Source: Phytoseiulus persimilis (taxonomy: Eukaryota > Arthropoda > Arachnida > Mesostigmata > Phytoseiidae). Taken from it: 64,000 bases of DNA. Where the stretch lies: assembly GCA_037576195.1 (NCBI GenBank), contig CM075102.1, positions 744,001 to 808,000 of the forward strand. The letters are read 5' to 3'. Below the pieces are notes generated by a model. The model made no database searches. It saw only the letters and a list, made by a program, of their open reading frames with translations, and was not told the DNA's origin. A program made the translations under genes and the position numbers. Below, one piece after another: positions 6,561 to 48,254 of this stretch. The stretch's first letter is position 1. Each line of letters begins with the position of its first letter.

Positions 6561-6832
6561 GCGCGAACTCGGAGAACTCGACACAAAATTACAGCTGACC
6601 GATCATCATAGCGACGCACCCCATCAACGATCCGATGTTCATAGGTTCATCAAGCCGTCCGCTATTCGAGAACGTTCGATCGGTACACCGTCGATACGTT
6701 GAATAAAAACCACGATTTGCCGGATACTTTGCTCGAAGAGGAGCCTCACGTCTGCGGAAAGAATCTTCAAGATCGGTTTTCCCAAAGAGCCACGGGCGAT
6801 TTACTGGATTTTACTCGAATCGGCGCAGGTTT

Positions 6833-7157
6833 TGTTGTAATATTTCGCTCAGACGGCCAAGCATACAGCGTCATCGGCTGACGAGCCGATGGCCATGGTA
6901 CGGCGTCCCTGACGGAAGCGCGGAGTTACCCTCTCATGTAACCCTGATCCATAGGATATATAAGCAGCATACTTTACTTCAATAAACATCGTATTCTATC
7001 TATCGCTGTAGTCGTCGTAATCGTCGCGTACGCTACGCCGACGCTGTATCAGTTCTCAGTCCGCTTTCTGAAGAACGGTGCTTACGACTCTTCGAGTATT
7101 CGGAACCAGAGGCTCTCAACATTCAGATTAAGTTTAAAGTGCACGGAATCTTCGACA
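6833..7157 (+). repeat. 5' LTR
   Basis: Starts TGTTGTAATATTTCG and ends ATCTTCGACA. It matches 19061-19385 base for base except a T/G difference in catacagcg(t/g)catcgg. It contains a TATA box (6957-6964) and AATAAA (6981-6986). Confidence 0.97.
6957..6986 (+). promoter_or_regulatory. LTR promoter (TATATAAG) and AATAAA
   Basis: TATATAAG at 6957-6964 and AATAAA at 6981-6986 lie close together, as is usual for compact copia LTRs. They would set the start of genomic RNA and, in the 3' LTR (19185-19192 and 19209-19214), its polyadenylation. Confidence 0.75.
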
Positions 7158-7171
7158 CGTTATCAGCACGA
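7158..7171 (+). promoter_or_regulatory. primer binding site, matching the anticodon stem-loop of tRNA-Ile
   Basis: cgttatcagcacga directly follows the LTR. It is complementary to the anticodon arm of eukaryotic tRNA-Ile(AAU/IAU), with a C opposite wobble position 34, where inosine would pair. This implies half-tRNA priming, the mechanism known for Drosophila copia with initiator tRNA-Met. The tRNA comparison is from memory. Confidence 0.65.
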
Positions 7172-7190
7172 TACTCCAGAGTACCTGAGA

Positions 7191-7198
7191 GTAAGTAT
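7191..7198 (+). promoter_or_regulatory. consensus 5' splice site in leader
   Basis: GTAAGTAT after ctgaga lies between the primer site and the gag ATG. Such a donor could make a spliced subgenomic RNA for the downstream ORF at 11556. A candidate acceptor, ctgtcag, lies at about 11540-11546. Confidence 0.5.
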
Positions 7199-7254
7199 AA
7201 GTGCAATTACTTCCTTTTGACATCGGTCCCACTTGGAGTGACCTACCTAGGGCC

Positions 7255-10200
7255 ATGGCAGACGACGACTACCAGTACGATCTGGCTGCGCAGGAAGATG
7301 AACCTGCCGCGCTAAAGAAGGACGATTCAGAGCCCCGTCCATCCGACTCGAACTATACCAGGCTTGCCCCATGCCCAGTGACCCTAGGTCTGTTTGGACA
7401 AAACTATTTGAGTTGGAAATCCTTAAACCCCATCTTCCTACAACAAACCGTAGATGTTTGGGAAGTCGTGAAAGGAGACCTAGTTGAACCAATCCCAACC
7501 GAACCAGCTACCGAGCTTAATGATGATCAAAAGAAAGTCAAGGTTCGGTATGATAGAGCAAATCGAAAAGCAAGACTCCAATTGTTCTCTTCGATCAACG
7601 ACAAACTGATTGTCCAAATGTTTTACGGACAAACTCAGGATGTCAGAGCAGCGGATATCTGGTCCCAGATCGCAAGCAAGTTTGGAGTCCGAGCCGCTCT
7701 GCGGCAAGGTTCGGCCATCGCGAAATTGATGCAGTTCAAGTTCAATAAGAGCAAGACTGCTGACCAGAACCTGGATAGGTTCCGCGATCTTCAAGCCGAA
7801 CTCACGGATTCTGGAATTGAGATCGATCAGAAGGTTCAGGTTGAACAACTGCTCAATGCTCTGCCACATAGCTGGGAACCCCTTCGTATGGCTTTCTCAG
7901 CCAGACCAGAAGGCGATAGGGATGTCTCCAGTCTGATGGAAATTATCAAGAATGAAGCAATTCGCCAAAGACCATCCAAGGAATTGGATCAGGCGACTGC
8001 TATGCTTTCTCAGATGAGAGTTGGTCGCAGGTTTGCACCAAAACGTAGATTCCAAAATCGTTCTCATCGAAGAAATGCCCCCAGCCATCATTCACAAGGA
8101 TCCAGCAGCAGTGGCTATGGTCAACAGAACCGTTCACGCCACCAGAGTAATAGACCAAACAGAAGACAAGTAAAGTGTTACAACTGCGGTGCAACAGGAC
8201 ATTTCAAGTCCCAGTGTACCCGCCCTCGGCGAGATCAAGGTTATCAAGGAGGAAGCGGACAGCACAGATCGCATGCTCGAGCAAGCACTGCCGTCGCACT
8301 CCTAGCTCACGTCAAGTATGACACGAGCGAAACCGATGAGTTCCTCGTAGATTCCGGCGCTTCGCACCATTGCAGTAGTTCAAGAAAGTGGTTCACTAGC
8401 TTTGACCAACAAACCGACATGCGCGCCGTCACCTTAGCAAGCAACCAGAAACTGCGTGTCACCGCTTCTGGCACAGCCGAGCTGACTGTCGGAGAGTCTA
8501 AGCAGCGGGTGACTTCAGAGCTTAAAAATGTTTTACTTGTCCCCTCAGTTCGAAAGAATCTCCTCTCTGTGAGTCAATTGACAGATGATGATTTCGAAGT
8601 GACGTTCAAAAGGAATCACCTCATAATTTCGAGAAACGATATGAGGATCCGAGTACCCAAGATAGAAGGCCTCTACAGATTTAGAATGGACTCGGAGATC
8701 GGATTACAACAAGATCAGGCAAGCGATCAAGAATCCGTAGACCAAGACGCAGACAGCGATCTTGACGACATGAATCATGATATTCCGTCTGAAAGCCAAG
8801 TGATGAGCGCCATTGGCTCAGAAAAGACGATGAGTGCACAGACGCAGAGCCTTAGAAGCCTGCATGAAAAGTTCGCCCATGTTAATAGGCAGTACGTGAT
8901 TAAATATTTGAACCAGCAGGGTATCAAGTACATTGATGATCTAGACCAATGTGACGCCTGTCTGAAGGGGAAGCTCACCCGAATCACGTACAGGAGCCGC
9001 CCTGATCAGGCGAAAGCTCAGAAGCCGGGCATCATAACCGCAGACCTTTGTTCGCCTAATGTAGAGTCAATAGAAAAAGCAAAGCATTTCCTTCTATTCA
9101 CTGACGAAGCAACCAGCTATCGAAAGGTCGAATTTCTCCAGAAAAAGGGCGACACTTATCGATACGTTGCCTCCTACGTAAAATGGTTCAGAAACGTAGT
9201 TGGCGAAAACATTCAGAGGTTGCACAGTGACAACGGAACGGAGTTCAGAAACCAAAAGGTTAAGAAGATCCTGGAAAGGATCGGAGCAGAACAAACGTTC
9301 GCCCCTCCAGGACAACCCCGTTTGACAGGAAAAGCAGAGAGAGGAAACAGAACTCTCGTGAATCTAGCTCGATCAGTGTTGATCGGAGCAGGCCTCGAAA
9401 ATAAGAAGTTCCTTTGGGACCAGGCGATCCTTTTCTGTGTTCAAGTTTTGAACCAAGTACTGATAAATGAAAAGACTCTACAGTCGCCTTTCGAGATGAT
9501 ATACAGGCGAAAGCCATTCACCAGCAGAATGTACGCATTTGGCACACCGTGCTACGTACACAACAAGAACCCAAATGGGAAGCTGGATGACCGCGGAATC
9601 GCGGGGATATTCGTTGGGTATCTAGACTACGATCTTGGATTTCGTGTCTACATCCCAGAGAAACGAATTATCATGCGATCGAAGGACGTAACATTCGCGA
9701 AGATCGCTTCCACTAAAAGGCAAGGTTCTGGCAGAACCAAGGCAAGTGAAAAAACAAGTGCTTCGGAAAATACTGCGGAAGCAGCGCACATTGCGAAAGA
9801 AGCCAATCACGATACGGAGGTCACAGGTTCAAGAATAAAATCACCAAAGCCAGCAGCACCCATGTACGAAAGCGCCTCAAGTGATTACGAAAGCGACGAA
9901 GAAGGTTTCGTACGCATTAATCCCAAGGCGAACAAGAAACGTACGGAAAGACTGCAGATTGCGGCTGACCTCAACCATCTTAGTGGGATATCGAAAAAGG
10001 AAAGGGCAGCAACCGACACCGTTCAGCCGAAAAGCCAAACGCCAATGACTTATCAAGAAGCAATGGCAAGCCCCGATCGTGTCCACTGGACGAAGGCCGT
10101 TGGAGAAGAACTTCAGGCAATGGCTGACATGAAGGTGTGGACTCCCGCAACACTACCACCTGGACGTAAGGCCATTGGCTCCAAATGGGTATTCAAGTAC

Positions 10201-11568
10201 AAAGCTAACCCAGATGGCACAGGACGTTACAAGGCTCGAGTAGTTGCGAAGGGATATTCGCAGAAGAAAGAAATAGACTTCTTTGCAGACAAGATATACA
10301 GCCCCGTATCCCGAGCTGAAGGAATCAGAACGATCCTCAGTCTAGCAGCGCAGGAAAAACTTTTCCTAAATCAGTTTGATGTACGCGCAGCTTTTCTTCA
10401 AGCAGAACTCGAGGAAGACCTCTATCTTGAGGTGCCTGAGGGCGTAAGAGGAGTACAGGCCAACAAGGTATTGAAACTACTGAGAAGCATATATGGCCTC
10501 AAGCAGTCAAGCCGAAATTTCTTTGATAAGCTAACGAAGATCCTTCTGTCCAGAGGACTTCAACAGAGCAAAACTGACAGCTGTATCTTCTTCAAGAATG
10601 GAGAAAATCGCATGCTCTTGTGCATATGGGTCGATGATGCCATACTTGCAACGAAGACTGAAAGACAGGCGGAGGAATTCATAACTTCCCTCAGGAAAGA
10701 ATTCGAGATCACTACTTCTGGTCTTAGATACTTTCTAGGTCTTCAGATCGAAAGAGGCAGCGACTTCTCGGTCCACATTCATCAAAAGAAATTCGTGGAC
10801 GAGTTAGTACAGAGATTCGGTATGTCAGATTCGAAAGGAGCAGTCACCCCATGTGACAATTCGATATACTCTATCGAGACCAACGGTCCGTGCTCTAATA
10901 CCGAATATCGTTCTCTGATAGGAGCTCTCCTATATTTGGCTTGCGGCACGAGAGTTGACATTTCTTTTGTCACTTCCTACCTATCAAGATATATGGACAA
11001 ATCAACTCCTCAGCATTTCCAGGCTGGCTTGAGAGTTCTGAGATACTTGAAGACAACCTCAGATCTGGGCATCACGTACAGAAGTGATGACACCCAAGGT
11101 ACGCTGTACTTCAGCGATTCAGACTTCGCTGGATCCATTGAGGATCGCAAGTCTACTTCAGGATGTCTGATACTCAGACAGGGGGGCCCAATTATTTGGA
11201 GCTCCACAAAACAAGCGAACATTTCGCTTTCCTCCATGGAATCAGAATTCGTGGCATCTACAGAATGCATCAAGTCAGCGCTCTGGCTTCGCAACCTTCT
11301 GGGAGAATTGGGTATCCCAGAAAAGCCGATCATCCAGATAGATTCGATGTCAGCCATTCAATTGCTCAAGAATGCCAGACACTATCGTAGAGCTAAGCAT
11401 ATGGAACTCAGATTTCATTACATTCGACAGCTCTACTCGAATCAAGAAATTGGGATCGAGCACGTTGGAAGCGCCAATCAAAGAGCGGACTACTTAACCA
11501 AGCCCTGTGTAAAGTCAGTATTCCTCAATCAGAGAGAACTGTCAGGACTTGAGAGATGGCGTCAGTAA
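7255..11568 (+). CDS. Ty1/copia Gag-Pol polyprotein, intact (1437 aa)
   Basis: The ATG at 7255 sits in a strong context (gccATGg); the frame is open from 7201 without an earlier ATG. Domain order: a copia Gag domain; a zinc knuckle CYNCGATGHFKSQC at residues 308-321; an aspartic protease with DSGA at 366; a pre-integrase HHCC zinc region (LHEKFAH, then CDAC) near 540-580; a DD35E integrase with Asp597 (TADL), Asp659 (HSDNG) and Glu695 (GKAERGN); a reverse transcriptase with WVDD, catalytic Asp1127-Asp1128; and an RNase H with DSDFAG (1288), Glu1329 and Asp1412. The order PR-IN-RT-RH is diagnostic of Ty1/copia. There are no stops, frameshifts or lost catalytic residues. Gag and Pol are in one frame, so regulation of their ratio must come from elsewhere, for example splicing. 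Confidence 0.97.
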   Translation: MADDDYQYDLAAQEDEPAALKKDDSEPRPSDSNYTRLAPCPVTLGLFGQNYLSWKSLNPIFLQQTVDVWEVVKGDLVEPIPTEPATELNDDQKKVKVRYDRANRKARLQLFSSINDKLIVQMFYGQTQDVRAADIWSQIASKFGVRAALRQGSAIAKLMQFKFNKSKTADQNLDRFRDLQAELTDSGIEIDQKVQVEQLLNALPHSWEPLRMAFSARPEGDRDVSSLMEIIKNEAIRQRPSKELDQATAMLSQMRVGRRFAPKRRFQNRSHRRNAPSHHSQGSSSSGYGQQNRSRHQSNRPNRRQVKCYNCGATGHFKSQCTRPRRDQGYQGGSGQHRSHARASTAVALLAHVKYDTSETDEFLVDSGASHHCSSSRKWFTSFDQQTDMRAVTLASNQKLRVTASGTAELTVGESKQRVTSELKNVLLVPSVRKNLLSVSQLTDDDFEVTFKRNHLIISRNDMRIRVPKIEGLYRFRMDSEIGLQQDQASDQESVDQDADSDLDDMNHDIPSESQVMSAIGSEKTMSAQTQSLRSLHEKFAHVNRQYVIKYLNQQGIKYIDDLDQCDACLKGKLTRITYRSRPDQAKAQKPGIITADLCSPNVESIEKAKHFLLFTDEATSYRKVEFLQKKGDTYRYVASYVKWFRNVVGENIQRLHSDNGTEFRNQKVKKILERIGAEQTFAPPGQPRLTGKAERGNRTLVNLARSVLIGAGLENKKFLWDQAILFCVQVLNQVLINEKTLQSPFEMIYRRKPFTSRMYAFGTPCYVHNKNPNGKLDDRGIAGIFVGYLDYDLGFRVYIPEKRIIMRSKDVTFAKIASTKRQGSGRTKASEKTSASENTAEAAHIAKEANHDTEVTGSRIKSPKPAAPMYESASSDYESDEEGFVRINPKANKKRTERLQIAADLNHLSGISKKERAATDTVQPKSQTPMTYQEAMASPDRVHWTKAVGEELQAMADMKVWTPATLPPGRKAIGSKWVFKYKANPDGTGRYKARVVAKGYSQKKEIDFFADKIYSPVSRAEGIRTILSLAAQEKLFLNQFDVRAAFLQAELEEDLYLEVPEGVRGVQANKVLKLLRSIYGLKQSSRNFFDKLTKILLSRGLQQSKTDSCIFFKNGENRMLLCIWVDDAILATKTERQAEEFITSLRKEFEITTSGLRYFLGLQIERGSDFSVHIHQKKFVDELVQRFGMSDSKGAVTPCDNSIYSIETNGPCSNTEYRSLIGALLYLACGTRVDISFVTSYLSRYMDKSTPQHFQAGLRVLRYLKTTSDLGITYRSDDTQGTLYFSDSDFAGSIEDRKSTSGCLILRQGGPIIWSSTKQANISLSSMESEFVASTECIKSALWLRNLLGELGIPEKPIIQIDSMSAIQLLKNARHYRRAKHMELRFHYIRQLYSNQEIGIEHVGSANQRADYLTKPCVKSVFLNQRELSGLERWRQ

Positions 11569-12107
11569 TGCAGCAGGTATTCGTAGCAGTAACAATATTC
11601 ATAATCCCCTCTAATCAATACTTTAGCTACTCAGACTGCGACGCCAAATGCATAACACGAAACTCTCCATGTATGTTAGTTAAACTGGATTCTGGTAGAT
11701 TCTCATCATTTTGTACACCACTAGCATTGTGTGAACTACACACCACCGAATACGCTCCCTGTATCAAAGAGTCTTCTCCAACCTCTGGAGGACTCAGACT
11801 GTGGCCCGAGTATCGCAATCGAACTCTGCCACCAAAGCCGACTGTTAAGCCATGTCCACCAATTCCACAAACACCGAACTGCAATTTCTGGAAGTACCTA
11901 TCCGCCATTCAAGGGGTAGTGTCACTCAGTACGCTTTCGGGAATTGTGATGCTCAAACTACTAAAGTTTAGAGCTCGTTTGTCTTACGAGCCAGTGGACA
12001 CTTCTATAGTAGACGATCCGACCATGCCGTACAGAACAACCGTCCAAAGCATAGACGAAGCCTCCGGCAGCGGGGTCGAGCGACAGCAGTCTCCCCCTTC
12101 AGAATAA
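11556..12107 (+). CDS. envelope-like type I membrane protein ORF of the copia element
   Basis: It overlaps the end of gag-pol: the first ATG is at 11556, and a second in-frame ATG (11568) overlaps the pol stop as TAATG. This suits termination-reinitiation or a spliced RNA. The 183-aa product has a hydrophobic N-terminus like a signal peptide (residues 1-24), then a Cys-rich region (about 8 Cys within residues 28-68), an NRT glycosylation site, a Pro-rich stretch, one membrane span (about 113-135) and a 45-residue tail. Architecture and position after pol resemble env-like ORFs of some LTR elements. No sequence family was recognised, so a fusion function is not claimed. Confidence 0.75.
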   Translation: MASVMQQVFVAVTIFIIPSNQYFSYSDCDAKCITRNSPCMLVKLDSGRFSSFCTPLALCELHTTEYAPCIKESSPTSGGLRLWPEYRNRTLPPKPTVKPCPPIPQTPNCNFWKYLSAIQGVVSLSTLSGIVMLKLLKFRARLSYEPVDTSIVDDPTMPYRTTVQSIDEASGSGVERQQSPPSE

Positions 12108-12163
12108 GTTTTGAAGGCGAGAAAAGACTGACTAGTCAGCAAAGTAAATAGTCAGGCTCACGT

Positions 12164-12187
12164 AAAAAAAAAAAAAAAAAAAAAAAA
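12164..12187 (+). repeat. A24 tract between sense and antisense gene blocks
   Basis: Twenty-four consecutive A lie between the end of the sense ORF (12107) and the 3' end of the first antisense gene (12268). It may mark where foreign sequence was joined to the copia element, for example a cDNA tail. A shorter A run lies at 12910-12923. Confidence 0.6.
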
Positions 12188-12263
12188 GGAGAAACATGAG
12201 ATGAGAAAGTAACATACCTGCCAGACTAACTCAGAGAAGAATCACATGAGATACATATAGCAA

Positions 12264-12269
12264 TTTATT
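12264..12269 (-). terminator. AATAAA for antisense gene 1
   Basis: On the minus strand AATAAA overlaps the TAA stop of the 12268-12870 gene by two bases. This supports a minus-strand transcription unit ending inside the copia element. Confidence 0.6.
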
Positions 12270-12870
12270 AACAAGGAGGAATGATAAGATCACAGCCGGA
12301 GTTGAACCAGCTCGTGAAGGCATTGTCCGTGAGGCCTCTCGGCCAGAGATCCGGATGGGCGTGGAGGTAGGTGCGAATCTTCTTCACCTCCTCCACGATG
12401 ACGCGATTCGCCGCCAGATCTTCCAGGCGACCCCGGTATTCTGGGGTCCTCGCCTCCCACTCGGCGACGATCAACGAGGCTGGGATTCGGCGCTCGTGGT
12501 CGCCGAAGGTGTCACGGATCAGACTGTTGAACTCGTCGAATCCGCGCCTCGACGGAGCTGGAAAGCGATCCAGATGGAGATGGACCTTGGCGCTTTCCAC
12601 GGCCGAGCGAACGCTGCTCGGCATCTGCATACTATCGAGGAACCGCAGTCCCTCGAAATCTCGGCCCAGGTGGTTGAACCTGAGCAACGAGTGCTGGTGT
12701 TTACACCAGCAATCTGCAACCGAACAGTAGCAGATTCGTGGCAGCGATTTCCACGAGGCCATGTCACAGCTGGGATCGTCGACATCATCCCAGGTGACCG
12801 TTTGTCTGGTCACTGGGGACGGGCCTTTGTACCCGCAACACGGGCATGCATCGGGCCGGATCGCGGACAT
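12268..12870 (-). CDS. antisense cargo gene 1: Cys-rich protein, unknown
   Basis: A 200-aa frame from a true ATG at 12870. The N-terminus has CPCCGYKG, followed by a second Cys/His cluster (CYCSVADCWCKHQH) at about residues 47-60, suggesting zinc binding. The remainder is charged and helical, without a membrane span, ending FNSGCDLIIPPC. Upstream on the minus strand is a weak TATA-like TTAAAA near 12953-12960. It is antisense to the retrotransposon. I do not recognise the family; a nucleic-acid-binding or regulatory role is only a guess. Confidence 0.6.
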   Translation of the reverse strand: MSAIRPDACPCCGYKGPSPVTRQTVTWDDVDDPSCDMASWKSLPRICYCSVADCWCKHQHSLLRFNHLGRDFEGLRFLDSMQMPSSVRSAVESAKVHLHLDRFPAPSRRGFDEFNSLIRDTFGDHERRIPASLIVAEWEARTPEYRGRLEDLAANRVIVEEVKKIRTYLHAHPDLWPRGLTDNAFTSWFNSGCDLIIPPC

Positions 12871-13216
12871 GTTTGCAGATGAGCTTGAGAGTCACTGAGA
12901 TGGTACACACAAAAAAAAAAAAAACGTTGTGAACTCCGAAACGTCGGAAACATCTTTTAAGGCGATGACCCGAACCATAGAGCGAGGGGAAGCATCCGAG
13001 AGAGGGAAAGCTACGAAACAGGGATAGCTTGACCCCAGATGCTCACTAAAGAATGTTTAGCCGAAGAAATCAATCACTAACAAGCAACTCGAGAACCACT
13101 TAGGAATCCGAATGGCTGTATCGCTTCAAAGCTCCAAAATAACTGCAGCATCATCCGAGCATCGGATGGCATCTAGAGCTTGAGTACACAAACGAGAAAA
13201 TCGACGACACGTTCTC

Positions 13217-13783
13217 TCAGGATTGACTTATGAGTTTTCGTTTATTTTCACACACATCAGTTACCAGGACTGTGTGGGCGAACACGTCCATGTCAATGGT
13301 GAATTGATGAGCACTGATGATTTTGAGAGTAGATTTTGAATTTGGTCGCACCACACATACATTCTGATAACCATCCACACAAATTTCGAATTTTGAATAT
13401 GAGCGACAAATGAAATATGAAGTATGAATATCAATAGAGCGTCCTTCGGTTGTAATGAGATGAAAAATGTCGATGAGTGATGATGTCCCCACACCCGTCG
13501 TCACCACCGGACCCTTGATGGTGTGCAGGGCCGGTGGGAGAGGACGGGTGACTTTAATATGTACAGGATCCGCAAACGGGTCGGCGCGCTGCGCGACCTC
13601 AAATGCAACGCCCGGGATCGTCACATACAACAACGTACAGAGAGCTGCGATGGCAGCGAACCGAAGGCGACCGAGGCTTCTCAACCTCCGAGTGCCACCG
13701 CAATTTTGCAGCGTTCGGTACGTGGGGTCGTCGGCAATCGACGACAGCGAACTCTCGAGGACGTTATGATCTCCGGAATGCAT
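13217..13783 (-). CDS. antisense cargo gene 2: single-span type II membrane protein
   Basis: The first ATG is at 13783; the frame is open further upstream to 13855 but without ATG. The 188-aa product has a polar, Arg-rich N-terminus (RRLRSLGRLR), one membrane span (about residues 43-63, FAAIAALCTLLYVTIPGVAF) and a C-terminal outer domain. The pattern FIC-x8-C-x7-C-VVRP near residues 130-155 also occurs in antisense gene 3. A minus-strand TATA box (13962-13969) lies about 180 bp upstream. AATAAA (13241-13246) lies within the last codons. The sequence acacacag just before the ATG could be a splice acceptor for an upstream exon. Function unknown. Confidence 0.65.
   Translation of the reverse strand: MHSGDHNVLESSLSSIADDPTYRTLQNCGGTRRLRSLGRLRFAAIAALCTLLYVTIPGVAFEVAQRADPFADPVHIKVTRPLPPALHTIKGPVVTTGVGTSSLIDIFHLITTEGRSIDIHTSYFICRSYSKFEICVDGYQNVCVVRPNSKSTLKIISAHQFTIDMDVFAHTVLVTDVCENKRKLISQS
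13241..13246 (-). terminator. AATAAA near the end of antisense gene 2
   Basis: The hexamer sits 22 bases before the stop codon on the minus strand, so cleavage would fall at or just after the stop. It is close-packed, as for the neighbouring antisense genes. Confidence 0.45.
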
Positions 13784-13961
13784 CTGTGTGTGTAAAGGGA
13801 CCAATTCAGAACCGAGAACTTGCCCATATGACAAAGAGAAAAACAGGTCGGACAAAACCTACATTCAACTTTCGGATGAGAGTTTCCTTTTCTCTTCGCT
13901 TGACGAACTTCTGTATTTGGCTGAGAGACGACTCGGCACACCAATGGAGAAGAGTCAGGCC

Positions 13962-13969
13962 ATTTTATA
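13962..13969 (-). promoter_or_regulatory. TATA box for antisense gene 2
   Basis: TATAAAAT on the minus strand in the context ccctataaaatgg. A start about 30 bases downstream would give a leader of about 150 nt before the ATG at 13783. Confidence 0.5.
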
Positions 13970-14081
13970 GGGACAAGAAATCACAATTTCTTAAAGCATA
14001 CGGAGCATAAAATTTATGCAGAAACACAGGACGATATACCACGATAGAAGAGAGGATGCATGATAAGTACAATTGAAGTGA

Positions 14082-14087
14082 TTTATT
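14082..14087 (-). terminator. AATAAA for antisense gene 3
   Basis: The hexamer is 9 bases beyond the TGA stop at 14097-14099 on the minus strand. It is the third antisense frame in this element with a correctly placed signal. Confidence 0.6.
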
Positions 14088-14699
14088 CAGAATCAATCAG
14101 AGAAATATTCCAATGTACCAAGAAAAATTTCTGCATCTCGGTATCGTCCCGTACAGCTTCTCAAAAGACGCTCGATCTGACTCAGATAGCTTTGCTACTT
14201 TCAGCGACTCAGAGACCCTAAGAGGATTGGGTCGACCGCTGGAGTCATATCGAGTAGGCTGTATCAGGCAGATAAAGTCTGCAGTAGAAACACATACGGA
14301 GAGATTATGAGATCTATGCCAGCACACAAATTTGTTTGGTCTATAGTAGTATTTGTGCGGACGATTCTTCAGATCTTTCATCAGCTCTTTGATCTTGAGC
14401 ATAGTCGAAACAATCATGGGTCTCTCCGATTGTGCAGCAGTAACTTCTTGTGTTGAAGAACGATGCGGGTGGATGACGTCGGCGATTATTGTTGAAATCT
14501 CCGACTCCGGTCGAATTGTAGTCGAGCGAGTGTTGTCAATTAGCGAATCCTCAAGACGACGCTCAACAGAATTGCCTGCCTGATTCACGACGATTGGAAC
14601 CTCGATCGATCTATTAGAAGCAGGCACTGCGATGGGAACAACACGATCACTAGCCGAATTCAAAGCTGGATCGGCCGACTGCGGAACCGTTACAGACTG

Positions 14700-14707
14700 C
14701 TCTACAA
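14700..14707. repeat. 8-bp target duplication of MULE-1 (left copy)
   Basis: ctctacaa at 14700-14707 is repeated at 18080-18087, bracketing the MULE. Eight to ten bases is normal for the Mutator superfamily. Confidence 0.8.
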
Positions 14708-17700
14708 GGGAGGCGGCAACAAGGCCCCAATGTTTACAGTCTGTTCAGGTGGATGGATGCATTCGCTCACGCTCTCCGTGAGCGGGCGGTGCTATATGCC
14801 TGCGAAATCAGTGGGAGGAGCCCGCCATCTCAGCGGAGCGTTCGATCGGCTGCCAGCTGGCGTGCGGCAGCCCCTCAAGCGCGATCATGGAATTGAATCA
14901 AGCATTGAATTGAGTCATCCGAAGAACACATTCTCCTGCGGCATTCGAAACGGCTAGACTAATACTTGGAGACATAATAAACCCGGGAATTTATGATTCC
15001 CCTCAGGTCAGGAGAGGGAAGATCAGGTTTCACGGAATGCTCGAGTCTCAATAATTGGGGCTGTATGCATCCAGCAGTGACAATGAGCCATCTGGAGATA
15101 GGGTGTTCCATGGCGCTCTACCGAACGGGAATCGCAGGTTAACCAAGAAAAGCAGAGGAGCGGTCGGAGCCAGACACCGATCGTTGGACTTCGGTCTGAC
15201 CTGGCTGTGGAGATTCGTGGAGATGGTGTTTGGTAACTTTTAAGGCGAATTCGGGGATGTCAGCTGGTTTGGGGAAACTCTTCAATCAACGATTGACCCA
15301 AATTTTGTCGTTTCGCACTTTTTCCTTGTCCGCTGACGATCCCTCATGCACTGAGGGCACAGTTTGATCGGAAGCCGATCCGCACCTATAGGGGAAACCA
15401 CCTGCGACGCGGATCGAGCTTCGATTGATAAGAAGAACAGTCTGAAGGGAACTCTGGAGAATGGAACGGCGTGTAAACACGCATTTGAACGTTCCACGAC
15501 GTCGGTGTCTCCGAAGTGTGTGAATAAACGTCAGTTCGAAACCTCTGAGGGAACTTATATCGCACATTTCGCAAGGGAGGGTCGACCGGGAAAAACCATG
15601 TCATAGCGAATCAGCGTTGTGCAAGGTCTCACTGTAGTTTATCGCGAAGATCGCCGAATTCCAAATCAGAGGCTTAGTTTCCCGTTTGCGCTCACGCTTG
15701 GCTCCATCCATCGAAGATCTTTGCTCGACATGGCCAACGCAAACAGCTTCAAAAAGGTCCCGAGTCTCCGTTTCGGACTCGGCGACTCCTGGTGCCACGA
15801 AGCAGGTCTCTATAACGTCGATGGCCAGCATGGTACGTCTGCTTTCTTCTTCCACCTGAAGCGACGGGACGCTGATGGACGGTTCAATGATCTGAGGTGT
15901 AAATCTTACAAAGACTCAACAGTCAAATGTCGAGTGATAGCGAGGATCACACCGACTGGCGAGATCCTCAAGGTTTCGGGCATTCACAATCATTTGCCGG
16001 ACGCCGAAGGCTATGGAGTAGAGTTCCGGGAGGCGAGGAGAGACATGATCACGGATATCAGAGAAAATCCCCGCAAACGTCCCGCGAAGGTCATACTCGA
16101 ACACCGCCGAAAACTCCCAATCGATCCTGCTTCACAAATTGTACCCGTGAAGCAGGCTCGAACCCTCCGTCTTCACGCGAGCAAGATGCGACCGAGCATG
16201 GTGAAGTCTCTGCGTGAGTTGCACGTCAAAATTTCCTCAGATGACATCCCCGGTTTCACTTCGACCAGTGACCACCAGCGTATCCTGAGCTTCTATAGCC
16301 CCGAGTTCGAAACTGTTGTTCTGACAACAGTGACCCTACTCAGGCTCTCCAACGAAGCAGCTGTGATTCACGCAGACGCCACCTATAAAACCGCACCCCG
16401 GAAGATCTGTAAGCAACTGTTCACCATTCATGGGAACTGGAACCAGTATGTGGGCATGGTCGCCTGCGCTTTCATGAATAAGGCGAACTTCGAAGCTTAT
16501 CAGTGGGTCTTCCAGTGCTTGAAGCAGAACTCGCCAGGGCCATTCAACATTCCAGCCTACATGGGAGACTGGGATGACGCAATGCGCAAGGCTGTCCGCC
16601 GCGAATTCCCCGAAGCGAGACTCTATGGATGCTTGTTCCATTATTCTCAAAGTCTGGTGCGAAAAGCCAGCAGCCCTGCAGTGGGCTTGGCGAACGATAT
16701 CCGCCGTCCAGGGGAAATTCTCTCTACCTTCCTTGCCTTCGCTGCACTGCCTCTGCTGCCCGCACCCTTGATTCAAGGTGCGTTCCACTACTTCGCGAAT
16801 CAAGCTCAGGATTTGAACGTCGGCTTCACTCCATTCCTCAATTACGTTTCCTCGTATTGGCTCCATCAAATCGGCCCAGAGGATCTTTCTGTATATAGGA
16901 TGCGTAAGCGAACGAATAACGACGTCGAATCTAACAATGCGAATCTTCTACGCGAAGCTGGTGTCCATGGCCCTTGCTGGGACCTCGTCTCGGTCCTCGT
17001 GAACGCCGCTCAGGATGTTCCCGTTAATCATGCGATCCACCAGCGCGGGGAACCGCACATTCTCTCCCGACCGAGCAAAGTCACGAGAGCCAACGACGAC
17101 AGAATCCAAGCGTCTTGGAATCTCTCAGACGAAGGAGAAATCGACGACATTCAATTCATTAACCGAGTCAAATATAGAGTGGGCAAGAAGAATATCTTGC
17201 CGAATCTCACTGGCCCTGATCCGAGAGATCCAGGCTTGCTGGCGTGGCTAAGTGATGCGGCGTCCCAGAACGCGCACACCTCGGACTCGACAGAGTCGGA
17301 ATCAGTCAGGAGCCCAGTTTTCCTTAGGAGACTCCTGGACGACGACTCCGACTCGGAAACCTGACTCTCGCTTCCCGAAGAAAGCCCGGACTCGTAGGAG
17401 CTGATTTGTGCTAGACTGACCGATTAGTTCGATTGGTCTTGAAATCTGACAGAGCTTCATTGTGCCATGGTTCATATCATAGTTTATACCATATATTCTC
17501 GTAGACTGCTATCACATAATATAAACGCGTTAACTCTGATGACATCATAAACACTCGTAAACGGAATGAGACCGGCCCGACCGAATGTCGAGCATGATTC
17601 CGATCCGATTCCCATTCCGATTCGAGAGGTTTTCTTTCCTGGCTGTTTTCTCGTGGGACTCGTTGTTCTCGCACGCAGGAACATTGCTATCCTCTCACTG

Positions 17701-18079
17701 CATTGTCCGTTCCAGGATATGCAAAAAGCATTGCCTTCGACGGGTTCACGTCCAGGTTGAAAACACTGACCAGTCGACATCACTTGAGCGCCAAGATTCG
17801 CAATACCTAGGCTCGGCAACTTCCCTTGTGGCTGCCGTCCGTCTAGCTCTCTCGAATCCTGTAGAAAAGGCGCTTTCCTCGGATGATTTCATTCTACGCG
17901 TGATTCAATCCCAACATCGCGCAGCACCGGCTGTTAGCTCATCGAAAGCTCCGCTAAGGCGACGGGCTCCTTCCCCATATCTCGCCGGCACCTAGGAGCG
18001 CCCGCTCACGGAGAGCATGAACGAATGCATCCATCCGCCTGAACGGACTGTAAACATTGGGGCCCTATTACCTACACCC
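14708..18079 (+). mobile_element. MULE-1 (Mutator-like DNA transposon), nested and recent
   Basis: Terminal inverted repeats of about 165 bp (14708-14880 and 17915-18079) share ggccccaatgtttacagt and ggatggatgcattcg. They are flanked by a perfect 8-bp duplication. The 3372-bp element holds one intact transposase and splits the antisense membrane-protein gene of the host copia. The tip motif (GTTTAC, then GGATG, then GCATT) resembles that of MULE-2 at 20.1 kb. Confidence 0.9.
15730..17364 (+). CDS. MULE transposase with FLYWCH-like N-terminus (544 aa), intact
   Basis: The first ATG is at 15730 (gacATGg); the frame is open from 15619 without ATG. The N-terminal third looks like a FLYWCH/WRKY-type zinc domain (FFFHLKRRDADGRFNDLRCKS, with Cys near 62 and 73 and IHNHLP near 90). 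The MULE DDE core follows: IHADATYK (Asp216), YMGDWDDAM (Asp280), YGCLFHYSQ (the C2H signature) and NNDVESNNANL (Glu400). The C-terminus is acidic and Ser-rich. No intron is needed, unlike the relative at 22.2-24.1 kb. It catalyses cut-and-paste transposition in the nucleus; it probably still encodes full-length protein. Confidence 0.9.
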   Translation: MANANSFKKVPSLRFGLGDSWCHEAGLYNVDGQHGTSAFFFHLKRRDADGRFNDLRCKSYKDSTVKCRVIARITPTGEILKVSGIHNHLPDAEGYGVEFREARRDMITDIRENPRKRPAKVILEHRRKLPIDPASQIVPVKQARTLRLHASKMRPSMVKSLRELHVKISSDDIPGFTSTSDHQRILSFYSPEFETVVLTTVTLLRLSNEAAVIHADATYKTAPRKICKQLFTIHGNWNQYVGMVACAFMNKANFEAYQWVFQCLKQNSPGPFNIPAYMGDWDDAMRKAVRREFPEARLYGCLFHYSQSLVRKASSPAVGLANDIRRPGEILSTFLAFAALPLLPAPLIQGAFHYFANQAQDLNVGFTPFLNYVSSYWLHQIGPEDLSVYRMRKRTNNDVESNNANLLREAGVHGPCWDLVSVLVNAAQDVPVNHAIHQRGEPHILSRPSKVTRANDDRIQASWNLSDEGEIDDIQFINRVKYRVGKKNILPNLTGPDPRDPGLLAWLSDAASQNAHTSDSTESESVRSPVFLRRLLDDDSDSET

Positions 18080-19045
18080 CTCTACAACACGTGTTCCGCC
18101 ACCGACGGGGAGAGAGTGATCCGAAGCAGACGTCCACGCGCCATCATCATTCAACAAAACCGGCGAAGGAGAGGAAGTCGTTTCCGTAACATCAACAGAA
18201 GCGTTCGTTTGTGCGGGGATGTATTCTGGAGTGGTTTCCCCAGAAGCATCCAGTTCAATTGCCCCGGACGCCGACAATCCAATCGAGACATTCCTCGAAA
18301 TGGGGGGCCGTGTGATGTTCTCTACAGCCCTGCCATAAACATCAACGCTCGCCGCCAACGAACACAAACAAGATCCATCCGGAAAAAGCAAAACGGACAG
18401 ATTCGTTGGAGCAGACCCGAGTTCCTTCAACAGATGAGCTGACGAAACGCCATCACCATGAGGATAAGTAGGATCTGCAAATATGGTCGATATATCGAAC
18501 ATCAGAAAGGCATGAAATTATATGCATCAAAATATCGACGATACTAACGCTCAGTGATCCAGGCCAACATTGCCACATTCCCAACCAATGACAATAGGCA
18601 AAGGACGAGCAACAGAAGGAACGGACGTGTACAACAGGAAACAGGATCGGAACCAATCACGTCCGGAACATAACGAGGCTCCAGATCACCGTCAAGATTG
18701 ACCTCACTCATTTCGTATTGCTCAGCTTGAGCAACACCGTAGGAACCACGAAACCGTCGAAATCGAGTGAGACGCGCAATCAACGAAGACATCGTCAGAG
18801 CTCGAGACAATATGAAACTCGACAGACTCAACATCGAACCAAGGGAGTCTGGTGACATAAGCGAGGAGATCGATCAACAGGAACCAACATTCAAGGAATC
18901 TCCCGAATCAGCCTCACGCTCTGGAATGTGAACATATGATACGTATGACTAGAATCATAGTATAGAATTCTAGGCGACATATTTTTGGATAAGGTTCATT
19001 TTGATTATTACGAATTACGCCTATATGCATTCTTGCCCGCCTGCT

Positions 19046-19057
19046 TGAAATGGGGGG
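19046..19057 (+). promoter_or_regulatory. polypurine tract before 3' LTR
   Basis: gaaatgggggg (followed by ctt) immediately precedes the 3' LTR start at 19061 and would prime plus-strand DNA synthesis. Confidence 0.7.
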
Positions 19058-19060
19058 CTT

Positions 19061-19385
19061 TGTTGTAATATTTCGCTCAGACGGCCAAGCATACAGCGGC
19101 ATCGGCTGACGAGCCGATGGCCATGGTACGGCGTCCCTGACGGAAGCGCGGAGTTACCCTCTCATGTAACCCTGATCCATAGGATATATAAGCAGCATAC
19201 TTTACTTCAATAAACATCGTATTCTATCTATCGCTGTAGTCGTCGTAATCGTCGCGTACGCTACGCCGACGCTGTATCAGTTCTCAGTCCGCTTTCTGAA
19301 GAACGGTGCTTACGACTCTTCGAGTATTCGGAACCAGAGGCTCTCAACATTCAGATTAAGTTTAAAGTGCACGGAATCTTCGACA
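19061..19385 (+). repeat. 3' LTR
   Basis: 325 bp, identical to 6833-7157 but for one base. It is followed directly by the ggttt target duplication (19386-19390). Confidence 0.97.
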
Positions 19386-19389
19386 GGTT

Positions 19390-19545
19390 TCGCGCGCTAT
19401 CTGGCGCATACTGGAGATGGATCAAAGACGAGTGGAACCCATTCTGATAATCGCAGATACGTTGAGAATTGAACATTAACGAGCCCGTTGATGTTGGCGG
19501 TCGAACGGAAGTGCCAAGACGACTTCGGCACGGGGCACAGATGCG
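19390..19545 (-). repeat. right arm of the older inverted repeat
   Basis: Inverted, diverged copy of 6411-6560 (best match 19461-19502). Together they are the arms of an older palindromic element into which copia inserted. Confidence 0.6.
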
Positions 19546-22161: not shown

Positions 22162-24124
22162 TTACGGCGCCAATAGCGGATGGAGACCATAGATATGATC
22201 TCCTCCGTGCTCATCGTGATCTTCATCATCGCTGTCGTCGGCGTCGTCGAGGACGACAGCGGCTCCTTCATCATCGTCTTCAGGAAGGGCCCCGTTGGCT
22301 GAGGGAATGAGATCTGAGAGTTGGAGTCCCTTGCTGACGTTTTTAGAGCTCGGCGGAGAATGTGAGAGAAAAATCAAATTACCTGCCCCAGTTCTATACT
22401 TGAGTCTCCGAACGAGCGTGATGCCGTCGATCAGCCCCGCGTCGAGTAGGTCCCAGGACTCAGTGATGCGTGCATCGTTCTCAGTTGTGGTTCGCGAGGG
22501 AGCAGACAAGATGTTAGTTTGCTGCAGTTGCGAATGACTACGATAGTTGACATACGTGTCTTGGTTGACCCCAACAATCACCTCTGAAGAACAATGAGCA
22601 TAATGAATATTTGATCTCGTTAGGGTCAAGGCATCGAGGAATTTCAAATCTAGTTCCGAAGCTTTGAACAACCACCAACCAATGAGATCCCAGACGCAAG
22701 GATGATGTTTGCCGTTCACCCTTCGCAAGAGCTTCGCATTATGCGACTCAACGGCATTGTTGGTCCTCGTTCCACATGGTGCCCTGTAAATAGAAGAACC
22801 CTCTGGTCGGACTTTGTCCAACCAGTAGGACCTCATGTAAGTAAGCAAACCAGCGAAGCGCGTGTCGGACTCCATCGCTCGGTTACGAAAGAAGTGGAAG
22901 GCTGGCTCGATTCCTCCCGGAGGGAGGAGCGGAAGTGCTGTCAACGATAGAAACAGTTTCCGCACGGGAGATCCGCGTCGCCGTATGTCACCAGCCAGAC
23001 CTACCTTGCCCGCACGCTTTACCAAGCATTGGGCGTAGTGGAAGAAACACCAGTAGACACGCACGCCGGGGAACTCTGACACCACGGCGGACCGCATCGC
23101 TTCGTCAAAGTCCCCCATGTAGGAGGCGACGTTCCAGTGGGGCACAGTCTCCTTGAGGCGCTGGAATACCTCCCGGTATGCCTCGGTGCTCCTGGCCTTC
23201 ATGAGCGCGCAGGCGACCATGCCAATCTGCGAAGAAAGAGTAGCGGATCAGCTGAGGCATGTATTTGAGGATTGAGATTAGCTAGCTACGCGATCTAAGC
23301 ATCCTTACGTAGCCGTCCCAGTTGGCATGAATTGTGAATAGCTGGTTGCACAGGTTGAGCTGAACCACTTTGTACGTGGCGTCGGCCTGGATCAGCGTTG
23401 CCTGGGGAAGCACAGCGAGCAGTCTTCTCGTGGTAAGTATCACGCTGTCATGCTCCGCGCAGCGAATACTCATCAGCCGCTCTCCGTCCTCGGTCTGGGT
23501 GTACTTCGCCACAAGATTTCCGGTGACGAAGTTGTGGAGTTCCTGCAGAGAGGAAACCGCCTTAGGTTTAACAGCCGCTGCGTGCTTGCGTAAGGTACGT
23601 ACGTTATGGTGGGGAGGCAAGTACATGGCGACCTCAGCCGGGACTTTTCGCCGCGCCGCCAGCAGCTGGTCGGTGGGGTTGGAAGTCGGCTGGTCTCGCA
23701 TGGCACCCTTGACGTTCTCCAGAACGTTTCGCGCGGCACGCCCGTGGCCCCCGAGCTCCGGCAGGTGGCTGTGGACACCAGGAGGCCGGATGATGCGTCC
23801 GTCTTGAGCAATCTTCGCGGTGACCAGGCACCTGAACGGGCTGGAAAGATATCCATGGGAGGGAGACTCTTCGGTGAGCAGCTCGGAAAAACGAGACAAC
23901 CTAACATCGCCAGATCTCGGCAGGAAACGAGGTCCTTACGCTTTGCGTTTCTTGCATGCCAAAGTGATCATTGTTCCGCAGGGCGAGTCTCTTTCCTTGT
24001 GGAAGACGAAATTGCCTGTTCCTGTGGCATGTTGGGTCACGTAGCTCCCCTGCAAATCATACCAAACGGGTCGACCGTATTTGCTTCCCGCCCCAGCGAC
24101 GAAATACTCGTTGATCCGATCCAT
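22162..24124 (-). CDS. MULE-2 transposase, three exons (593 aa), apparently intact
   Basis: Exon 1 24124-23940 (ATG), intron 23841-23939 (GTAAGG to TTCCAG), exon 2 23840-23309, intron 23227-23308 (GTAAGG to TTCGCAG), exon 3 23226-22162. Lengths 185+532+1065 keep the frame. The N-terminus is FLYWCH-like (FVFHKERDSPCGTMITLACKK, then VHSHLPELGG). The MULE core has IQADATYK, YMGDFDEAM, YWCFFHYAQ and NNAVESHNAKL, supplying the DDE and C2H motifs. The C-terminus is very acidic. Alignment with MULE-1 transposase (NWNQYVGMVACAFM against NWDGY/IGMVACALM) supports the splice joins. A further intron near 22520-22585 is possible but not required. Confidence 0.85.
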
Positions 24125-31273: not shown

Positions 31274-31332
31274 AGTGCGTAGTGTGCTTGCTCGTGCATC
31301 GTTCGCGGCTCCGTAGTTACGCTTCTACTGCA

Positions 31333-33117
31333 ATGGCGTCCAGGTCGTTCACGCAGCTGATGGATCTCCCCAACGAGATGCTGGATCATCTCTCGAAGTT
31401 CCTCGGACAAGGGTCGTTGTGTTCATTCGCCGCCGCCCATCCCCGCCTCCAGGCGGTCTGCCAGAGCTTGTCCTCCTTGGAGCGCATAAGGAGTAACAGC
31501 ATCACCGGATCGTTGTTGCAATTCGTTTCCCCCAGAGCATCGGAAGTGCGTTCTCTGGATCTCTCCGACTGCTGGTCCGGGTCGGAGAGCATGAAAACGC
31601 TCATCGGAAACTGCCGCAACGTCTCTGAGTTGAATGTTGTGAACTCCTCGCTGACGCTACAGGATCTACTTGAAGTTGTCCCGGAGCTGAAGCAGTTGAA
31701 GGACCTGAGTGTTACCATCAGTGAAAATTCCGGAAACAGCTGTCTCGGACTCTATCCCAGCATCCGGAAACTCTACGTTGAGTTCGCCCCCAGTGATGAT
31801 GTCATGGACAGCGTGGTGGGACTCTTGGAAGCTTGCCCCGGGGTCACCTATCTCCACCTCAATCCCATCGGGTACAGTCGAGAGCCGGCGTCGACTGAGA
31901 GTGTGAGCCTGAGCGCTGAACGATTGAGCGGGTACAGGACTCTGATCTTATCCACAGAGCTGCTGAGTCGCTCACAGCAGCTACGCTCCAGAGTCTTCTC
32001 CCGGATTCTCAAGAACGACACTTTCCTCAATCACTTCCTCCAGTTCAACGTGGCCGTAAACCATTGCTGTTGGTTCGAGCGGGAAAACTTCGACGAAGAG
32101 GGCGTGGAGCTGGGAACCATGCCGGGAACACTCAGCCACTCGTACCCGGTGCACTACATTTACGGTGACGAGTTCGAGTTCCCGGATTCGTTCTCCGAGG
32201 GTCAGATCGGGCTACGCGTCTATTCCCATCGGAGAGGGCTCAGGATGCCGAGCTTGAAGACGCTTTCAGCTTTGACGGAGCTCGATTTCTCGAAACTTCA
32301 TTTCGAGTTCTCGCCAGAATCATGGCAATCGCTCGTGGAGACATCCCCGGCTGTCTGCGCCTTGGCCCTACCCAACTGCTCCCTCTTCGCGACCACAGAA
32401 GGCAATCCAGTCGTGAACGAAGGCATCCTCGAGGCGCTCAGCAAGCTCGAGCTGAAGACGCTCTGCATCGAAGCGAGAGACCCGGAATGCGATGACTGCC
32501 TTGACAGGAAGCTCTCGGGTCTTTTCGTGAAGTTTCTCAGCTCCTTCAAAAGCCTCGAGGAGCTTACTCTCAACGGGGTTGAGGTGGAGGAGGACTTGTT
32601 TGAACTTGTCGAAGAACCTTGCTCCCTGAAGTCGGTCAAGCTCAGTTTGTACAACGAACCGAGCTTGAGGCGACTTGGAGATTTCCTCTCTTTGTGCAAG
32701 GATCTGAAGAAGTTCAAACTAGAATCGTTCGATCTTTCCGTCGATTCTCCTTCACTTTGGGAGGCCTTGAGCGCGGTTCAGCTGAAGCAGCTCTGCCTCT
32801 CATCTAGCGGAGCCAGGCCGATTGATGTCGACATGCTCGAGGCGAACCTCCCTAAACTTTTCAGCAGTCTCGACGTTTTTCACCTCCACGCGATACGCAT
32901 CCCAAACGCCGAGGAGGTTCGTTGTGCGCTGGAACATGGAGCTCGAGAAGCGAATCTTCATCGAGGAATCAACCCCGTTATATTCGTCGGACCGGAAGAG
33001 CCATCGGTCAGCAACATCAAAGGACTGTCCATGGCTCGGTTCCCGGGACGGAGTTTCTGCAGTTTGAGGAACTTCGCCGGTAGAGTGAAGCCGATCAGCT
33101 GGGTAACGAGCGACTAA
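31333..33117 (+). CDS. F-box/LRR protein A (594 aa)
   Basis: ATG at 31333 (caATGg); the upstream open frame to 31282 has no ATG. An F-box lies at residues about 6-45 (LMDLPNEMLDHLSKFLGQGS, then FAAAHPRL), which would bind Skp1. Irregular leucine-rich repeats follow to the end (VRSLDLSDCW, LKDLSVTIS, LTELDFSKLHF, LEELTLNGVEV, LKQLCLSSSG), presumably binding a substrate for ubiquitination. The gene has one exon. AATAAA is at 33184-33189. It differs from copies B and C at roughly 17 and 12 residues by eye. The substrate cannot be told from sequence. Confidence 0.85.
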   Translation: MASRSFTQLMDLPNEMLDHLSKFLGQGSLCSFAAAHPRLQAVCQSLSSLERIRSNSITGSLLQFVSPRASEVRSLDLSDCWSGSESMKTLIGNCRNVSELNVVNSSLTLQDLLEVVPELKQLKDLSVTISENSGNSCLGLYPSIRKLYVEFAPSDDVMDSVVGLLEACPGVTYLHLNPIGYSREPASTESVSLSAERLSGYRTLILSTELLSRSQQLRSRVFSRILKNDTFLNHFLQFNVAVNHCCWFERENFDEEGVELGTMPGTLSHSYPVHYIYGDEFEFPDSFSEGQIGLRVYSHRRGLRMPSLKTLSALTELDFSKLHFEFSPESWQSLVETSPAVCALALPNCSLFATTEGNPVVNEGILEALSKLELKTLCIEARDPECDDCLDRKLSGLFVKFLSSFKSLEELTLNGVEVEEDLFELVEEPCSLKSVKLSLYNEPSLRRLGDFLSLCKDLKKFKLESFDLSVDSPSLWEALSAVQLKQLCLSSSGARPIDVDMLEANLPKLFSSLDVFHLHAIRIPNAEEVRCALEHGAREANLHRGINPVIFVGPEEPSVSNIKGLSMARFPGRSFCSLRNFAGRVKPISWVTSD

Positions 33118-47800: not shown

Positions 47801-48254
47801 CATTCCCGCGCTCTCCACCTTGCTCTCCTCTCACTTGACAATCTTTCGCCATATGTCCAAATCTCTGGCACCGTCTGCACGTAACTCGGAACCTCTGACC
47901 GAATTCACCACGATTTCCGCTACCGTTCCTGTACTTGGACTGATAGTGAGTCACTTCGGCACGGTTCTTGTGCGTTTGGCTCCCTCTTTTAAAATCACAG
48001 CCGGCTAACCCGCCAGCCGACAGCCAACGATGGCTGACGCGGCGGCTGGAACGCCGCTTCCAAAAGCGCGATATTCGAACTGCCTGAGGAAACTCCGACC
48101 CGTTTCTTAACTTCGTCTCCTTCCTCCGTCTCCTTTCTCCCTGTACCGCCGGCTGACGGGCTGAGAACTCGCCATTTAGGCTGTTTTTCGCGCCGCTCTC
48201 GAAGAGGGGGCCAAACGCACAAGTACCCTCCACGATTGGAGGATTAGCTTCCAA
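44809..48254 (-). pseudogene. second Ty1/copia element, decayed internal region
   Basis: Minus strand, in copia order: Gag zinc knuckle CRRCQRFGHMAKDC (about 47840); protease DSGASVLMG; pre-integrase LWHKRSGHLN and CGACAEGKKSRKP; integrase with RSDNGTE (stop after it at 46949) and NGVAKRAQRTL, where Lys replaces the catalytic Glu; reverse transcriptase (SKWVFQLKLDKHGGVTKYTA; YQLDVETAHLHGKL; IYVDDFLI); RNase H (KSTTGCVLIAAG; ALSATEVESMACSAA; RTEHIDLRHHYIRE). Frames change at about 46660, 45700 and 45260. Paired LTRs were not found. It is a different lineage from the 6.8-kb element. Confidence 0.9.

Follow-up and report, generated by a model that had tools for sequence, protein, structure and literature searches.

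Retroelements are thought to lose introns through their passage via RNA. Among the described systems closest to the one reported here, plant Retand/Tat elements of the Ty3/gypsy type hold antisense open reading frames (ORFs) between pol and the 3′ long terminal repeat (LTR), the products of which look DNA-binding in the available part of their description (PMC11963269). In the accessible account of sORF2, the closest parallel that has been tested, this short protein transports capsids of Ty3/gypsy elements out of follicle cells to reach the oocyte (PMC11952523), and the available text of a paper on annelid LTR elements contains no mention of antisense or extra ORFs (PMC8556966). Here we analyze a stretch of 64,000 nucleotides from the mite Phytoseiulus persimilis (GCA_037576195.1, contig CM075102.1, positions 744,001 to 808,000 of the forward strand), below called the window, which at positions 6833–19385 holds a Ty1/copia element. 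An arthropod origin agrees with 112 matches to Chitin_bind_4 in the genome, against none in 14 control genomes. With a probability of about 0.72 we consider this element to be one copy of an ambisense Ty1/copia lineage having its own predicted antisense membrane-protein genes, for which surface recognition is the proposed role.

A Ty1/copia element with minus-strand genes

The element is young and intact, with paired LTRs that differ at one position in 325. This single mismatch, a perfect 5-bp target-site duplication (TSD) and an intact Pol had been named in a preliminary description of the same DNA, and all were borne out, by LTR alignment, by GGTTT at both ends and by a single gag-pol frame. 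Integrase precedes reverse transcriptase (RT) in one pol, with rve at 608–706 and RVT_2 at 978–1218 of the gag-pol frame, and TG..CA ends together with a 5-bp duplication were found in nine of nine copies having two recognised LTRs, as is typical of Ty1/copia. Downstream of gag-pol come a sense gene, ORF3, then the minus-strand genes A, B and C and finally the 3′ LTR (lengths of proteins in amino acids, aa):

6828–6832, no strand: TSD GGTTT, left copy
6833–7157, plus: 5′ LTR, 325 bp, TG..CA
7201–11568, plus: gag-pol, single frame, ATG at 7255, 1437 aa, with Retrotran_gag_2, CCHC, Pol_BBD, rve, SH3 and RVT_2
11556–12107, plus: ORF3, 183 aa, predicted sense type I membrane protein (leave-one-family-out E 1.7e-32)
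12268–12870, minus: gene A, 200 aa, Cys-rich N-terminus, without membrane segment
13217–13783, minus: gene B, 188 aa, predicted type II membrane protein with a C-terminal Cys domain; hypervariable cassette
13963–13969, minus: TATAAAA, 186 nt upstream of the gene B ATG, present in six of seven copies examined
14097–14699, minus: gene C exon 2, 3′ part, with the C-terminal Cys domain
14700–14707, no strand: TSD of the nested MULE, left copy, CTCTACAA, 8 bp
14708–18079, plus: nested MULE DNA transposon, with terminal inverted repeats (TIRs), TSD, transposase and empty sites in other copies
18080–18087, no strand: TSD of the nested MULE, right copy
18088–18474, minus: gene C exon 2, 5′ part
18475–18548, minus: 74-bp intron of gene C, GTTAGT..TTTGCAG
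18549–18858, minus: gene C exon 1 with the membrane segment; the frame of copy L009 begins at an ATG internal to this exon
19047–19060, plus: purine-rich tract GAAATGGGGGGCTT preceding the 3′ LTR, identified by eye
19061–19385, plus: 3′ LTR, 325 bp
19386–19390, no strand: TSD GGTTT, right copy

The three minus-strand frames reported earlier were all recovered in the ORF list. Their description as three membrane-protein genes holds for B and C; gene A lacks a membrane segment, its mean hydropathy over 19 residues being 0.41 at best, and a fourth gene, the sense ORF3 at 11556–12107, had been overlooked in that inventory. An AATAAA, noted before at the end of each gene, was found there for A (12264–12269) and C (14082–14087); that of gene B lies within the frame (13241–13246), with about 22 nt left to the stop codon. 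Between ORF3 and gene A, 24 consecutive A occupy 12164–12187, in a region 16 bases longer than in L009.

Both the element length of 12.5 kb and the 4.8-kb span of gene C (14097–18858), as originally given, were inflated by the MULE. The real length is about 9.2 kb: without the MULE and one 8-bp duplication the window element measures 9173 bp, similar to the 9163–9189 bp of the complete copies L009, L010, L013, L014 and L015. TSDs of MULEs are about 8–11 bp long. The insertion at 14708–18079 carries TIRs of 163 nt with 79% identity, an 8-bp TSD and a transposase frame at 15619–17364 (581 aa; PF10551, E 1.4e-13), the features that define this group. An exact anchor beside the site was found in 16 fetched stretches, and the empty site was crossed uninterrupted in 15 of these other copies; the sixteenth, L025, departs from the shared sequence at the MULE site, and the anchor had no match in the remaining stretches. 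The nested MULE has broken gene C in the window copy. A second frame with a MULE domain lies nearby (window 22168–23247, minus strand).

The coding potential of the minus strand was assessed by the ratio of nonsynonymous to synonymous substitution (dN/dS) in all six frames, using 15 copies of gene A, 15 of gene B and 13 of gene C exon 2. The lowest ratio of the six belonged in each case to the stop-free minus-strand frame (A 0.26, B 0.29, C exon 2 0.31), in which 52–57% of the differences fell at third positions. The opposite-strand phase that has the wobble position in common gave 0.28–0.37, but with three to nine stops. For ORF3, the true frame was likewise the lowest of six (0.26). Restricting the comparison to strictly intact copies gave 0.22 for gag-pol (n=7), 0.26 for ORF3 (n=13), 0.24 for A (n=5), 0.29 for B (n=15) and 0.32 for C exon 2 (n=5), and gene B had a strictly intact frame in 15 of 20 copies. 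These comparisons point to the minus strand as the coding strand of all three genes, A, B and C.

The intron of gene C sits soon after the membrane segment, has GT..AG ends and contains stops. It measures 74 bp in 14 loci, against 73 bp in L011 and 76 bp in L012, and is thereby found in 16 of the 18 loci examined; of the remaining two, L022 shows an altered donor, and L021 remained unanchored. Length differences of this kind can be harmless only where splicing removes the stretch. Earlier called an in-frame intron, it was upheld as an intron; 74 is not a multiple of three, and only the join of the exons is in frame. The notion that an antisense intron survives passage through a sense RNA fits its retention in these loci, since antisense introns would never be spliced from the genomic RNA and would accordingly persist. 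Gene B is intronless in the window family. In other families, best-scoring splice pairs of 88 bp lie at a like place in L035 and L037 (one family, RT identity 44–45%), gene B of L034 holds a 61-bp best intron candidate among 13, and its gene C a 69-bp GTGAGC..TTTTAG stretch recognised by eye; L038, with membrane segments in separate upstream frames of the same strand, would also need an intron.

Several copies of the same gene set, which the preliminary description had asked for as confirmation of a family, could be found. A query of 2591 bases taken from the region of the antisense genes gave at least 74 matches in the genome, including 15 of whole length with 89–100% identity (window copy included). 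We fetched 20 stretches, representing 19 further copies (L025 and L026 being two halves of one), which held the gene set whole or in part. All nine copies with two recognised LTRs, among them the window copy and the internally deleted L027, had perfect and different 5-bp TSDs, with LTR mismatches of 0, 0, 0, 1, 1, 1, 2, 6 and 16, thus 0–2 in seven of them; in the other stretches an LTR was missing, cut or unmatched by the strict pattern. The independent perfect TSDs and the few LTR mismatches show that these genes move with the element and have done so recently. Judged from the sequences, the antisense genes are probably the element's own equipment, moving with it and kept by selection. Copies L012 and L021 contain 11 and 27 frameshifts in gag-pol, although this part has about 98% identity to that of the window copy; decay or assembly errors may be the cause.

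ORF3 and the antisense Cys domain in related families

The RT search yielded at least 96 matches, with 89 of 602 candidates scored. Among the matches listed, RT identities were above about 91% for the window family and 57, 51, 45, 44, 43, 41, 39, 38 and 37% for other copia families, from which we examined the stretch after pol in 12 loci (L032–L043).

ORF3 has a hydrophobic N-terminus, a Cys-rich ectodomain, one further membrane segment and a tail. Its ATG lies ten bases before the pol stop codon in the window copy, giving an overlapping start, and between 65 bases before and 5 after that stop in the ten loci measured; its length ranges from 136 to 187 aa. The window ORF3 as query had 140 matches genome-wide. 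In the other families ORF3 was found in 12 of 12 loci with E 1e-45 or better, using a model in which most of the families are themselves represented, and hidden Markov models (HMMs) leaving out one of nine family groups at a time recovered the omitted group at E 1.8e-22 to 7.2e-43, with 0.019 as the best value for decoys (minus-strand and unrelated window frames). Read-through of stops in ORF3 matches of the 43% family was considered and dropped; L038, the sole case examined, has a TAG within the tail followed by a natural end.

The antisense Cys domain follows the motif F-x-C..C..C, often with a final C before an aromatic end. It was clear in 10 of the 12 loci, L034 to L043, with a model containing most families (L043, E 4.7e-8), and weak in L032 (0.0023). 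When left out in turn, the members were retrieved at 3.2e-4 (B), 4e-5 (C), 1.4e-6 (L034), 1.6e-6 (L035), 5.8e-7 (L038), 6.8e-3 (L039), 9.7e-7 (L040), 2.3e-16 (L041) and 1e-11 (L042), with decoys at 0.11 at best, and two genes that had not been chosen were also recovered, L034 1364–1663 (9e-4) and L038 2085–2297 (3.3e-6). In B, L034, L039, L040, L041 and L042 a membrane segment and the domain that follows it share one frame, whereas for C, L035, L036, L037 and L038 the segment is located in the neighbouring frame upstream. Ser/Thr-rich stretches occur in the antisense proteins of several families. A direct profile comparison of B with C was weak (E 0.091), so that their relatedness rests on the wider Cys-domain set; B compared with ORF3 gave nothing.

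Relatives of gene A were seen in L029, L030, L032 and L033, and an HMM built without L032 found L032 at 3.7e-12. Homologues with 41% identity also lie in two places near C3:37.32 Mb (L045 169–918, minus strand, and C3:37332047–37332526), away from the RT matches listed, and may represent either a gene of the host or a different element. The term cargo, used earlier for the genes of this one element, cannot be kept, since they belong to a whole copia lineage with families down to 37% RT identity.

With Pfam, no homologue was found at 0.1 for antisense or sense frames of the window beyond the known pol and MULE domains, and the antisense proteins of the window and of A4 gave only one chance match (0.16). 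Searches of PDB gave nothing for gene B and one chance match for gene A (0.43), with C compared only within the Cys-domain profile, and the ORF3 and Cys-domain profiles gave chance matches only in Pfam and PDB (best 0.036).

Some further observations concern these families and the surroundings of the element. An extra sense frame of about 330 aa, coiled-coil-like by eye, follows ORF3 in the 39% RT family (L040 850–1854 and L043 2995–3987, plus strand), and short tandem repeats in the form of repeated peptides lie downstream of the antisense genes in L036 (3255–4370) and L037 (3224–3832), as a candidate part of the element. The window contains a second copia element at about 44836–47981 (minus strand), decayed and of another clade (23–30% pol identity), in which neither ORF3 nor the antisense domain was detected; the trait is therefore not general to all copia elements. 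Three plus-strand frames of equal length (613 aa), at window 31276–33114, 51238–53076 and 57510–59348, look like a repeated gene, and the one tested had weak F-box/LRR matches under the curated cut-off.

Diversity of gene B and possible roles of the antisense proteins

Gene B differs far more between copies than does the remainder of the element. The synonymous divergence (dS) of the window copy was 0.052 in gag-pol and 0.57 in gene B when compared with L019, and 0.03 and 0.29, respectively, when compared with L013, L014 and L015. Among 15 intact frames the distance from the window allele reached 1.6 (L028, the gag-pol of which is outside the fetched stretch), at a constant length of 186–188 aa. 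Scanning the part from ORF3 to the LTR in 11 aligned copies, as mean difference per 100 bp, we found 11.5–22.9% in the gene B windows, 8–15% directly upstream of B, 12% in one window of gene A, 9% just past A and 0.2–6.3% elsewhere. Tandem arrays of an A::B fusion, forming an inverted pair with a 1389-bp period, are also present in the genome (C2:5594302–5600138, plus, and 5663986–5678496, minus; L044); the fusion frame is open from mid-A, and the portion of A ahead of this carries a stop.

We propose that a sense RNA from the 5′ LTR would give Gag-Pol and also ORF3, the start of which overlaps the end of pol. Distinct antisense mRNAs, initiated within the element (for B from its TATA) and spliced where an intron exists, would yield B and C as related type II proteins with a membrane segment and a C-terminal Cys domain, and in some families protein A. 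The presence of type I and type II proteins, some of them Ser/Thr-rich and one hypervariable, suggests surface recognition, and at slightly less than even odds we favour a role of the antisense proteins in such recognition or in cell-to-cell transfer. ORF3 together with B and C would allow particles, or the cells bearing them, to attach to other cells, for instance from soma to germ line. Specificity would reside in gene B, which elements would trade through template switching and which frequency-dependent selection such as receptor interference would keep diverse. Antisense transcription, docking and interference are here what we infer. More tentatively still, a copia lineage may have evolved, apart from retroviruses, a multi-protein surface system in which attachment-like glycoproteins come from antisense spliced mRNAs, B has diversified into recombining serotype-like variants and ambisense coding lets a retroelement keep introns.

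The same proteins could instead shield the element. Shown on the producing cell, they would prevent related elements from entering or from being active (superinfection exclusion), antisense RNA might dampen the sense RNA, and the variety of B would mirror the rivals being blocked. Cassette-like diversity of B beside near-identical gag-pol fits exclusion groups as well as receptor groups, and the antisense position permits transcript interference. We nevertheless regard this as unlikely, for the sense ORF3 is at least as widely conserved, which fits a joint role on particle and cell surface better, and exclusion alone does not call for the Ser/Thr-rich stretches of several families. Roles other than recognition or transfer and exclusion take up the rest of the probability.

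A single capture of host genes by an ancestral copia, with the genes carried along passively ever after and kept by hitch-hiking, would agree with the introns, which look like a nuclear gene origin, and with the gene A homologues at C3:37.32–37.33 Mb. This is improbable considering the dN/dS of 0.26–0.31 in stop-free frames, the retention of the genes across families at 37–57% RT identity and the finding that A is often broken, B and C much less so.

A local mutation hot spot, rather than exchange of old alleles, would account for a divergence peak that is narrow and has its centre on B and the adjoining upstream stretch. The borders of the mosaics are too sharp for this to be given more than a slim chance: L021 and L013 differ by 0–4% outside and by 13–28% in four windows over the B ectodomain. 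Similarly, L028 differs from L009 by 2–7% in the flanking windows nearest B and by 22–60% over B and its upstream stretch, where it is nearer L031 of another, diverged subfamily (10–30%), with the reverse outside; segments common to otherwise unlike elements were thus already seen in a few copies. We read gene B as being swapped as a cassette, with old alleles exchanged by template switching and each under purifying selection. A one-off chimera or an assembly artefact is ruled out by the independent insertions with different TSDs and by the several families.

Several observations speak against an ambisense lineage with a selected recognition system. Gene A is broken in most copies and intact in only five, and it is broken in L013, L014 and L015 even though the paired LTRs of each are identical, for which reason gene A is not needed in cis. 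At a dN/dS of about 0.29, gene B has no direct sign of positive selection, and the clearest mosaic, L021, is a decayed copy with many frameshifts. In a gag-pol control piece the true frame scored 0.46 and a minus-strand frame with 18 stops 0.44, so that dN/dS alone does not settle the strand and the absence of stops does the rest. Gene B alone has a recognisable TATA on its strand (chance density 0.07 per 350 bp); none was found for A, C or eight distant genes with assumed starts. The starting set for the Cys domain was selected by eye, which is a weakness; the domain is unconvincing in L033 (E 0.12), the match of L039 is weak (0.0068), and L041 and L042 prop each other up, falling to 1.2e-6 and 9.8e-4 when both are left out. 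No known envelope fold was found in Pfam or PDB, with nothing below E 0.036.

Comparison with known systems

Genes on the opposite strand escape the rule of intron loss, a way out that this copia lineage apparently exploits for two related, selected membrane proteins. If B and C serve transfer between cells, they would represent an envelope-like invention in a copia branch, and the swapped gene B makes recognition or exclusion among related elements of one genome directly testable.

Antisense ORFs between pol and the 3′ LTR are already established in plant Retand, and the layout here is alike in having conserved antisense ORFs in that position, with the 3′ LTR not located in the distant families. 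A copia element with antisense membrane-protein genes was not found in the open-licence literature, judged by titles and the starts of abstracts. Retand/Tat elements differ in being Ty3/gypsy elements of plants with antisense ORFs that contain TRP28 and other DNA-related domains; the available main text reports no putative transmembrane regions in their sense ORFs and does not use the word intron (PMC11963269). The element described here has a copia pol, and no TRP28 match was obtained with Pfam for the antisense proteins of the window.

The retroviral antisense genes HBZ of HTLV-1 and ASP of HIV-1 also encode proteins on the antisense strand, that of ASP being hydrophobic according to the parts of the literature covered, and HBZ is spliced. 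They differ from the present genes, which do not overlap sense genes, number two or three, include two with a common Cys domain and reside in Ty1/copia. Retroviral Env is not a match for ORF3 either, with about 95 residues between the hydrophobic start and the membrane segment and no envelope match in Pfam, an SU/TM cleavage site and a fusion peptide having been judged by eye only.

Additional ORFs with membrane segments and Cys residues are known from animal LTR elements in the ORF3s of bdelloid rotifers; these belong to gypsy- or retrovirus-like lineages, and in the accessible text intron is never mentioned and antisense only once, for small RNAs (PMC5408684). The sORF2/FAST-like proteins of insect MDG1-group Ty3/gypsy elements, being short membrane proteins other than classical Env that act in soma-to-oocyte transfer, offer a model for a possible role of ORF3; as described in the portions available they have 63–107 aa and an ectodomain of about 30 residues, many have a myristoylation motif, MGxxxS/T at the N-terminus, and all candidates are in forward orientation (PMC11952523). 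None of 11 ORF3 sequences begins with MG and their ectodomain is much longer: ORF3 has 136–187 aa, a signal-like start and a Cys-rich ectodomain, and it is accompanied by B and C as predicted type II proteins encoded in antisense.

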